From NCBI RefSeq assembly GCF_019711655.1, contig NZ_JAIGNU010000001.1:248001-312000 (forward strand): a DNA stretch of 64,000 nucleotides. Reading direction: 5' to 3'. Source of the stretch: Qipengyuania mesophila (GTDB lineage Bacteria; Pseudomonadota; Alphaproteobacteria; Sphingomonadales; Sphingomonadaceae). Positions 11,305-14,734 of the stretch are shown here, piece after piece (the first letter of the stretch is position 1; each line of letters starts with the position of its first letter). A program made the translations under genes and the position numbers. Below the pieces are notes generated by a model. That model ran no database searches, was not told where the DNA came from, and worked only from the letters and a program-made list of their open reading frames with translations.

Positions 11305-11426
11305 CGGCGCAATGCATCGCCGCGGGTGGTTCGCCAAACTGCGCTTCCGCCCGGCCAAGCGTGAATCGATTGCCTTTCCGCCCCCTCCCCTGCTAGCGGC
11401 GCGCGCAAAGCAGCAAGGTGCCCTCA

Positions 11427-12641
<1,215 letters not shown>

Positions 12642-12670
12642 TTGCGCTGCAGCACGTTTGTGCAGCGCAA
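12642..12670 (+). terminator. Hairpin after argG
   Basis: A 10-bp perfect stem (12642-12651 with 12661-12670) directly follows the argG stop. No T-run follows, so it may be a weak terminator or an mRNA 3' stabiliser rather than a classical one. Confidence 0.5.
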
Positions 12671-12729
12671 TATTGCGTGATCGGCGCGGCGACTATTCCA
12701 TTTTTGCGACGAGCGGTTGAGTTATCCAC

Positions 12730-13333
12730 CCCCCTCCACAGCGAAAAGCGGGGAAAGTGGAAAACTCGGCCCTTGCGCGCTGGACGAATCGCCCGATCAG
12801 GCGCAGCTTCAAGTCATCGGAACGGCGAGGGACTTCCACCGGATCGACGGCCTAACGGCCTGAAATCAAGGAGAAATTCCACACCGGAAAGACATGGAGA
12901 ATGCTGTCCATGTGTTTTCGAGACCGTCATGCGGAGGACTTCGGTCCAAGGCAAGAGGGTCGATGACGGAACACAATGTACGTCTTTCATGGATCGGGCC
13001 AACCCGGTCGGATGCCGAGGTGGCATTGCAGAGACGGTCTTCGGACCTGATGGGCGATGCAACCGTTCGAGGCTCCGGCCATCAACGGAAGGTTTGATCG
13101 CGGAGCCGCCTGTCGAAGGCCGGCCTGCGACGGAAGCGAGGGTCTTCGGACCTGGCGCACCAGAGCGGGGCGACTGGAGGGTGGAGCCGGATGCCGGTGC
13201 GAGCGCCGGTGACAGAACCGGAAGCGGTGCCTTCGGGCGCAGCGGAAGGGAAAACATCGGATGCCAAGTTCCTGTCTTCGGACACGACCACGCATCGGTG
13301 AGAGTGGGGTCGGCAGCAATGCCGGCCCCATTT
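12730..13333 (+). ncRNA. Candidate structured RNA rich in UUCG tetraloops
   Basis: About 600 bases between argG and rlpA hold no recognisable protein but many stable hairpins. Five are capped by perfect C(UUCG)G tetraloops with different stems: 12936-12947, 13036-13047, 13141-13152, 13227-13240 and 13273-13284. The first lies inside a 7-bp outer helix (12924-12930 with 12963-12969); the last lies inside a 5-bp helix (13260-13264 with 13292-13296). Others: 12892-12913 (7 bp), 12992-13009 (7 bp), 13011-13027, and 13071-13107 (two stacked helices). The run ends in an 11-bp GNRA-capped stem at 13305-13330. Strand is inferred from the UUCG loops, which only form stable C(UUCG)G caps when read on +. 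The 5' end is a guess. No RNase P, tmRNA, SRP or 6S signature was seen. Confidence 0.6.
13305..13333 (+). terminator. GNRA-capped terminator-like stem
   Basis: An 11-bp stem with one G-U pair (13305-13315 with 13320-13330) closed by a GCAA tetraloop and followed by TTT. It probably marks the 3' end of the candidate RNA; the T-run is short, so efficiency is uncertain. Confidence 0.55.
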
Positions 13334-13551
13334 GCCATACGCCCTCCCCGGATGCCGAGAGCGATTCGGACTCGCGCCGATCCACGGCTTGTACAGACGC
13401 CTCCCAAGACCCGCTAAATGCTGTGCGGCGCGACGTGATCGTTCCCCAAGCGCGATGAACTGTGGCAGGAATGGGGCGACCGCCCGCCGTCCTAGCGACT
13501 TGGCTGGCAGGCTCGCCTATAGACCTTCCAACCGAACGGGAGGTCCAGATC

Positions 13552-14070
13552 ATGGCCAAACGCGCGTTTCGCAGCTTGTGTTTCCTTGCCGCCGTAGCGC
13601 TGCCCGCAACCGCGGCGCAGCCCAAGGAGCACGTTCACACCGCCCAGCCCCAGGCCGCCGAGTTCGAAGCCAGCTTTGCCGGTTTCGAGGTGCTGCCGCC
13701 CGCTCCCGAACCCGCCGCCCGCGCGGTCGACCTGCGGACGATCGAGCCGGCGGTCGAAGCCCCGCGCACCACCACGCCCATCGAGGGCGGCGTCGCCTCC
13801 TATTACGGCCGTCGCTTCCACGGCCGCCGTACCGCCAGCGGCGAGACCTTCGACATGCATGCGATGACCGCGGCGCACCGCACTCTGCCCTTCGGTTCGC
13901 TCGTCGAGGTGACCAATCCGCGCACCGGCAAGTCGGTGACCGTGCGGATCAACGATCGCGGCCCCTTCCACGGCGGCCGCGTGATCGACGTCAGCCGCGC
14001 CGCGGCGGAAGAGCTCGGGCTGATCGCTCACGGCCGCGACACGGTCGAGCTCGCGCTCCTCAACGGGTAG
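13552..14070 (+). CDS. rlpA: RlpA-family septal ring lytic transglycosylase / DPBB protein
   Basis: 172-residue secreted protein: signal peptide (ending near PATAAQ), a linker, then a C-terminal double-psi beta-barrel with GGVASYYGRRFHGRRTASGE, MTAAHRTLPFGS and INDRGPFHGGRVIDVS, the RlpA signature. RlpA cleaves naked glycan strands at the septum; the SPOR domain of E. coli RlpA is absent, as in many short alphaproteobacterial forms. GGGAGG upstream of ATG 13552 fixes the start; the frame upstream is open but not protein-like. Confidence 0.88.
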   Translation: MAKRAFRSLCFLAAVALPATAAQPKEHVHTAQPQAAEFEASFAGFEVLPPAPEPAARAVDLRTIEPAVEAPRTTTPIEGGVASYYGRRFHGRRTASGETFDMHAMTAAHRTLPFGSLVEVTNPRTGKSVTVRINDRGPFHGGRVIDVSRAAAEELGLIAHGRDTVELALLNG

Positions 14071-14101
14071 GCATTGCATCGCCCGCTCGCGGGCGACGGC
14101 G

Positions 14102-14734
14102 TCAGGCGGCGAGTTCCTGCTCGTCGGGCGACCCCAGCGACGGGGCCATTTCGGCTTCGACCGACAGGCGCACCGCGGCGGCGAGATTGCGTACGCCGAG
14201 CTTGGTCAGCACATTGGCGCGGTGGAGTTCGACGGTCCGCGGGCTGATCCCCAGCGTGCGCGCGACTTCCTTGCTCGAATAGCCCTCGCAGACCCCGTGG
14301 AGGACTTCCTTCTCGCGCGGCGAGAGCGCGCCGATGCGCTGCTTGGCCTGCGCCTGCTCGAGCGTCGCGGTGGCCCCCTGGCGCCGGCGCGTCATGATGT
14401 TCGCGAGGCAGCGCTGCAGTTCCTCGCCAGCGGCCGGCCATTCGAGATAGCCCACCGCGCCGCTGCCGAGGACGTCCATCACCCGCGCGATGCTCGCCTG
14501 CTCGGCATAGGCCACCATCGGGTAGAACTTGCCCGCCGCCTCGAGCGCCTGCTGCGTCTCGGCGAGGAGGTTGCCCCCGTCGTGGACCAGCATCCAGGCC
14601 TGGTCGGGCCAGCGCCCGCCGAGATCCTCGAGCGTATCGGCGGGGACGACATAACCCACGTCCCCCAGTGCCAAAGTCAGTTCGTGACGATTACGATAAT
14701 TTCCATCGACGACAATAAACGTGGTGCCATGCAT
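14102..14734 (-). CDS. LuxR/FixJ-type regulator with degenerate receiver
   Basis: 210-residue DNA-binding protein. The C-terminal LuxR HTH is canonical (LSPREKEVLHGVCEGYSSKEVARTLGISPRTVELHRANVLTKLGV). The N-terminal half resembles a response-regulator receiver but lacks a convincing phospho-acceptor cluster (VDGNYRN, WMLVHDGG), so it may be phosphorylation-independent. ATG 14734 is preferred to an in-frame TTG at 14761. It is divergent from a second LuxR-type gene and shares a 320-base intergenic region with a long dyad, which suggests auto- or cross-regulation. Confidence 0.8.
   Translation of the reverse strand: MHGTTFIVVDGNYRNRHELTLALGDVGYVVPADTLEDLGGRWPDQAWMLVHDGGNLLAETQQALEAAGKFYPMVAYAEQASIARVMDVLGSGAVGYLEWPAAGEELQRCLANIMTRRRQGATATLEQAQAKQRIGALSPREKEVLHGVCEGYSSKEVARTLGISPRTVELHRANVLTKLGVRNLAAAVRLSVEAEMAPSLGSPDEQELAA

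Follow-up and report, generated by a model that had tools for sequence, protein, structure and literature searches.

A predicted structured RNA between argG and rlpA in Qipengyuania and its relatives, with promoter signals that may tie it to the replication and methylation cycle

Introduction

Large structured RNAs are few in bacteria, and several of the known ones are unusual machines. In Qipengyuania mesophila, the spacer between argG and an rlpA-like gene carries a cluster of hairpins capped by CUUCGG, which raises the question whether they belong to a folded RNA and, if so, what kind of genetic unit encodes it. The sequence under study is a window of 64,000 nucleotides (the whole stretch of DNA that was analysed), in which an initial annotation had placed an undescribed structured RNA at 12730-13333. 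The locus was compared here with its counterparts in related genomes as regards fold, promoter signals, gene neighbourhood, coding potential and resemblance to known RNA families. The features recognized are collected in Table 1.

Table 1. Features of the argG-rlpA locus (window coordinates) and of related loci (coordinates of each locus)
Feature	Position	Strand or direction	Remarks
argG, upstream neighbour	11418-12641	+	same-strand argG match upstream in 93 of 94 loci
Upstream element, three DnaA-box-like boxes	12722-12764	+	near-fixed 43-bp layout
Box 1, TTATCCAC	12722-12729	forward	part of upstream element
Box 2, TCCAC(A)	12735-12739	as box 1
Box 3, GTGGAAAA	12757-12764	reverse	points towards boxes 1 and 2, 17 bp on
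-35 element	12781-12786	+	TGGACG in the window; TTGNNN in 67 of 72 relatives
GANTC site (GAATC), CcrM methylation/GcrA word	12786-12790	+	conserved within promoter
-10 element, CAGCTT (CANNNT)	12804-12809	+	17 nt after TTGNNN
Predicted non-coding RNA	12816-13333	+	about 518 nt; start inferred from -10 element
UUCG hairpin 1	12936-12947	+	pair 12938/12945 covaries, E 0.000
UUCG hairpin 2	13036-13047	+	pair 13038/13045, E 0.05 (first null test)
UUCG hairpin 3	13140-13153	+	core stem same as hairpin 2
Helix HA, 5' strand, closes 3' domain	13192-13201	+	10 pairs, 95.5% of cells paired
Helix HB, 5' strand	13203-13211	+	9 pairs, 89.1% of cells paired
UUCG hairpin 4	13227-13240	+	contains one G-U pair
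Helix HB, 3' strand	13255-13264	+	bulge at 13261
UUCG hairpin 5 (variable hairpin HV)	13271-13286	+	6 of 6 pairs changed on both sides; 13274/13283, E 0.017
Helix HA, 3' strand	13291-13300	+	pairs with 13192-13201
Terminator hairpin	13305-13330	+	11 pairs, GCAA loop, then TTT
rlpA-like gene, downstream neighbour	13552-14070	+	same-strand match downstream in 93 of 94 loci
argG-rlpA spacers without RNA, same genus	L254, L256, L257, L258, L259		genomes G001, G008, G010, G024, G519
argG-rlpA spacers without RNA, others	L255, L260, L261, L264, L266, L111		genomes G145, G069, G122, G139, G079, G096
Stretches of similar build at other loci	L293 1500-2190, L297 1700-2210, L288 1570-2260, L294 1430-2075, L295 1480-2120

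UUCG-Capped Hairpins and a Conserved 3' Domain

Counting both strands, the window contains 87 copies of the word CTTCGG, where shuffled sequences contain 55.3 (sd 6.9). Three or more additional standard pairs (G-U included) flank 11 of the 87. Five of these eleven lie within 12939-13281 on the + strand, at 12939, 13039, 13144, 13231 and 13276, so that the annotated cluster of five capped hairpins in 343 bases was found where it had been placed. All five are standard-paired with at least three further pairs, 13231 only with one G-U pair, and the statement that every stem is different does not hold for 13039 and 13144, which have a common GGTC/GACC stem. The enrichment extends to the relatives: in the stretch matching 12790-13300, 72 non-redundant copies contain on average 2.65 CTTCGG, against 0.23 in dinucleotide shuffles. 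The sequence also folds better than its shuffles, both over 12700-13360 (z -3.95, 20 shuffles) and over the predicted RNA with its flank, 12816-13336 (z -3.71, 100 shuffles).

The copy set was derived from 94 loci, which were reduced to 87 (7 had been fetched twice) and, after near-identical copies were dropped, to 72. A structural alignment, A1, comprises 54 of these, without some copies of the same genus and those of unusual length. A1 supports a multi-branched architecture of the 3' part of the RNA, as had been suggested from the window, in which helix HA encloses helix HB, a small helix HC and the variable hairpin HV, and is followed by the terminator. In this domain 93.6% of the cells hold standard pairs, a share that falls to 34.9-42.3% after sliding of one strand. 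Of its 38 pairs, 21 show changes on both sides, and the cells changed on both sides number 159, against 48.8 in shuffled and 25-39 in slid alignments; the slid-strand comparison leans towards the structure because the latter was drawn from the same alignment. Helix HA illustrates the pattern, with columns 16/171 read as CG in 25 sequences, UA in 17 and UG in 10. The GNRA-capped, terminator-like stem of the initial annotation is real: it is paired in 100% of cells in the 54 sequences, five of its pairs are changed on both sides, and in three A1 relatives (L059, L047, L082) its loop is UUCG rather than GCAA.

Covariation was also assessed, more strictly, against null alignments, columns with more than half gaps being left out. 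With 40 tree-simulated nulls, five pairs reached E<0.5, all within the RNAalifold fold of the same alignment. In a re-aligned version (60 nulls, 515 columns), three pairs remained at E<=0.3 and only two at E<0.05, namely 12938/12945 and 13274/13283; the hairpin 2 pair 13038/13045 was not among the three. The pair 12938/12945, in the first UUCG hairpin, scored above all 60 tree-simulated null alignments and occurs across relatives as GC (39), AT (14), TA (10) and CG (4). The compensatory changes that abound in the 3' domain thus support the reading of the locus as a folded RNA; in the middle part the alignment is poor and the fold less certain.

Promoter Signals and an Upstream Element of Three Boxes

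Upstream of the RNA, a pattern of three boxes (TTWTCCAC-N4..7-TCCAC-N16..26-GTGGAWAA) was detected in 82 of 298 genomes of the family, once in each, whereas the reversed-pattern control gave 0; it is 43 bp long in all but five of the rows listed. The inverted repeat formed by the outer boxes had been a candidate for an RNA hairpin at the 5' end, which was rejected for lack of covariation: 12721/12765 is paired in 40 copies against 35.5 expected, and 12724/12762 in 45 against 45.0 (n=72). Because the arms vary independently, the conserved signal lies in the DNA and not in an RNA stem, and the repeat was reassigned to the promoter. The annotated interval stands as to its end at 13333; its first ~85 bases are promoter and the predicted RNA begins at ~12816. 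According to the available text of PMC10380432, the DnaA consensus is TTWTnCACA; boxes 1 and 3 match the first eight of its nine bases and, in the pattern rows, the ninth is mostly not A. The exact word TTATCCACA occurs only 4 times in the organism's own genome, scattered, compared with 6 for the reversed control, and no clustered perfect boxes were found there. The ninth base and this lack both speak against DnaA.

Next to the boxes, sigma-70-type signals are arranged at fixed distances. The spacing TTGNNN-N17-CANNNT is exactly 17 in 66 of 72 relatives and 18 in one, against one in 3,600 control windows, and the five copies with TGG in place of TTG are that of the window and four others of its genus. 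The promoter is offset from box 3 by 16 nt in 63 copies, 17 in 1 and 5 in 3; in these last three (L051, L065, L089) it lies 11 bp nearer to the boxes, equal to one helical turn, as expected if a protein touches RNA polymerase from one face. Downstream of box 3, at a distance of 8-36 nt, 67 of the 72 relatives have a GANTC word, so that the combination of sigma-70-type signals with GANTC inside is present across the relatives (67/72 and 66/72); it is absent in 5 of 72, and its background is 0.00064 per base. The distance from box 3 to its start is 21-23 nt in 58 copies, 11 nt in the three with the nearer promoter and 28-29 nt in six. The extended word YGAKTCK, given in the accessible part of PMC7987155 for GcrA-activated sites in Caulobacter, fits in 60 of 72 copies on the opposite strand and in 4 on the same strand; this is weak evidence, since the same source describes no base preference around GANTC in Brevundimonas. 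GcrA itself is encoded in the own genome, as judged from a model that also matches one archaeal control.

These boxes bring to mind a locus in which the DNA element is primary and the RNA secondary, recharging or titrating DnaA as DARS or datA do. Like DARS and datA of E. coli, which PMC10380432 describes as clusters of DnaA boxes at a set place away from oriC, the locus has a cluster of DnaA-like boxes. There are three, almost invariant in arrangement and present once in each genome with the pattern, and in 21 genomes they are separated from parB by 0.29-0.46 of the chromosome, contig 1 being taken as the whole circle. The same text states that DARS needs a head-to-head pair of boxes (I and II, plus III), and boxes 2 and 3, which face each other here, may correspond to such a pair. 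However, the boxes, at about -94 to -52 of the predicted promoter, stand in fixed phase to it and beside a structured RNA that is conserved in fold, and a primarily DNA-based role is considered unlikely. An origin of replication was rejected as a candidate, as parB is 0.29-0.46 of the chromosome away in the relatives (21 of 22 genomes, G318 being left out).

Distribution and Gene Neighborhood

By DNA search, relatives were found in 33 of 61 genomes tested: 33 of the 37 from the same genus (the own genome counted), mostly near full length and with 69-84% identity, and none of the 24 from other families of the order. A family-wide search returned relatives in 125 of 397 genomes and 37 of 96 genera. 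Many of these BLAST matches cover the two ends only, which are joined by a profile of the genus; in each of the 94 loci, which represent 87 distinct places, this profile covers 516-686 nt, in three of them as two pieces. Of at least 119 matched stretches, the 80 listed mostly bear names such as Erythrobacter, Qipengyuania, Altererythrobacter, Porphyrobacter, Croceicoccus and Croceibacterium. Plasmids gave no match. At E<=0.001, a covariance model of the 3' domain (R1) matched 172 of 298 genomes of the family, and 124 of 246 in another tally, both of which overstate; only the matches of at least 52 bits, in 96 of 298 genomes among the rows listed, are relied on here.

The position of the unit invites the alternative of a cis-acting element, either the 3' untranslated region of the argG mRNA or an rlpA leader. 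The argG match ends 1-168 nt ahead of the profile, rlpA lies downstream in the same orientation in almost every locus, and the promoter of several genera leaves hardly any space for an argG terminator before it. In the window, a hairpin, TTGCGCTGCA...TGCAGCGCAA followed by TATT, lies just after argG (12640-12680), and similar ones occur in several members of the genus and are absent where the RNA closely follows argG. Against a cis element speak the fixed-spacing promoter and the terminator that the unit has of its own, the distance to rlpA, whose match starts 152-672 nt past the RNA end, and the boxes of L114, ~660 nt after argG. Moreover, neither boxes nor RNA were detected between argG and rlpA in eleven genomes in which the two genes adjoin, and the RNA of L041 (1-1061) has no argG before it even in a laxer search, which points to a changed neighbor. 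The unit is thus not bound to argG or rlpA, and a cis-acting role appears quite unlikely. In L071, a laxer search likewise found no rlpA after the RNA.

Of the eleven genomes lacking the RNA between argG and rlpA, G069 keeps in its spacer (L260) the word TTTGCGACGAACCG, which precedes the boxes in other genera and suggests a deletion there. Losses in some genomes argue against an essential role. Diverged units are kept at argG in genera g117, g83, g30 and g108, the last with a promoter without GANTC; in the remaining lineages examined, both within the family and in the order, searches of the ~1.5 kb beyond argG found nothing. Relocated copies were sought in the members of the genus without the argG copy and rejected. 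Three of the eleven genomes gave weak model matches elsewhere, of which that in G010, at 42.8 bits, and that in G519, at 30.1 bits, are the ends of long open frames (303 and 746 codons) plus a terminator of the same type, and that in G024 scores 25.0 bits. Hence R1 scores below ~45 bits were not counted alone. Terminators of the form GGGGYCGGC-loop-GCCGGCCCC at other gene ends, as in L280 2029-2191 (G010) and L281 2013-2194 (G519), inflate the model scores.

A separate observation concerns stretches of ~0.4-0.6 kb with 57-60% purine that lie away from argG in genera g99 and g112, each with a weak model match at its end. All five such stretches (Table 1) end in a GGCAGC-type terminator; a TTATCC-type start box was found in L288, L293, L295 and L297 and not in L294, and only L293 shows TTGNNN-N17-CANNNT with GAATC. 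Open frames were listed for L293 and L295 only. Homology of these stretches to the argG-rlpA unit is suggested by their similar build.

Coding Potential and Known RNA Families

No sign of coding was found in either the alignment or the frames of the relatives. Within the genus, the length of a gap run is divisible by three in only 98 of 2,058 cases, and the three forward frames are free of stops in 1, 1 and 4 of 72 copies. The reverse frames are stop-free in 24, 18 and 24 copies, and their similarity suggests an effect of composition and not of coding.

The sponges CsrB and RsmZ have many hairpins and GGA words. The argG-rlpA RNA resembles them in both respects, with 20.8 GGA per copy against 16.1 in shuffles, and might likewise sequester a CsrA-type protein through GGA loops. 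Yet the own genome has no match to CsrA (PF02599), which was found in 3 of 14 controls; CsrA was therefore discarded as the bound protein, another one would be required, and a sponge of this kind is very unlikely. CGGA is in surplus as well (11.6 per copy against 5.5 expected), which may be partly due to the hairpin stems.

Among the 4,227 families of Rfam, none matched window 12000-14200 at E<=5 or any of 10 related loci at E<=0.1. A strongly diverged housekeeping RNA (RNase P, tmRNA, 6S or SRP) would agree in size and folding but is scarcely credible, given this lack of matches at lax thresholds and the failure to find a convincing copy in close relatives, where such RNAs must be present. 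No description of the argG-rlpA RNA was found in the literature searched, which included few subscription journals, so that its absence in print is not established; in the available portion of PMC4741004, a Sphingopyxis genome was searched for RNAs by Rfam models only. Within this partial coverage of the literature, the RNA is rated as new and as the first member of a family not described before, within the GTDB family to which Qipengyuania belongs.

A Model for the argG-rlpA RNA

Comparison of the relatives shows a conserved unit with its own predicted sigma-70-type promoter signals, its own terminator and a conserved fold of the 3' domain. The explanation preferred here, in which we place moderate confidence, is a stand-alone gene for a trans-acting structured non-coding RNA of ~0.52 kb that represents a new family and is probably timed by the replication/methylation cycle. 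In the proposed mechanism, a protein, most likely DnaA, would bind the three phased boxes and aid RNA polymerase. The GANTC site inside the promoter would make transcription dependent on CcrM methylation and GcrA and, for this reason, synthesis of the RNA would occur at a fixed point in the replication cycle, given by the moment at which the fork passes the locus, which lies in the half of the chromosome towards the terminus. Acting in trans, the RNA would then provide a folded scaffold, or a decoy, for an RNA-binding protein, a role that would explain both the UUCG-capped hairpins and the CGGA surplus; this is the weakest step of the model, in particular the binding of the protein through exposed CGGA words.

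A bolder version, which is tentative and rather doubtful, pictures a replication-clocked RNA that is produced by DnaA-like boxes and a CcrM/GcrA site in one burst per cycle and forms a scaffold feeding back on replication, division or translation. The stretches of similar build at other loci in two genera would make it a wider, place-changing system.

Relation to Known Systems

CcnA of Caulobacter crescentus is much shorter than the argG-rlpA RNA, and Rfam holds models of the large RNAs OLE, GOLLD and ROOL. As described in the accessible text of PMC8959179, CcnA is a non-coding RNA at the replication origin, with a proposed action via a CCCC loop. The present RNA would resemble it as a non-coding RNA of Alphaproteobacteria linked to the CtrA/GcrA/CcrM cell cycle circuit, and differs in location, as in relatives the argG-rlpA RNA is 0.29-0.46 of the chromosome from parB. 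OLE, GOLLD and ROOL are likewise long, highly folded bacterial RNAs (PMC12286853, in its available part), whereas the argG-rlpA RNA has no Rfam match. Promoters controlled by GcrA and CcrM share the GANTC in the promoter and the YGAKTCK word on the opposite strand (PMC7987155 and PMC2877005, as far as their texts were available); here, by contrast, dependence on methylation and GcrA is a prediction, and GANTC is combined with DnaA-like boxes.

Concluding Remarks

To the hairpins reported initially, the comparison adds a promoter, a distribution across many genera and losses in some genomes. The argG-rlpA RNA, with its predicted promoter and fold, occurs widely in a group of which many members are in culture, and its natural presence and absence within one genus offers a ready comparison. 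Its promoter signals would tie a non-coding RNA of this family to the replication and methylation cycle.
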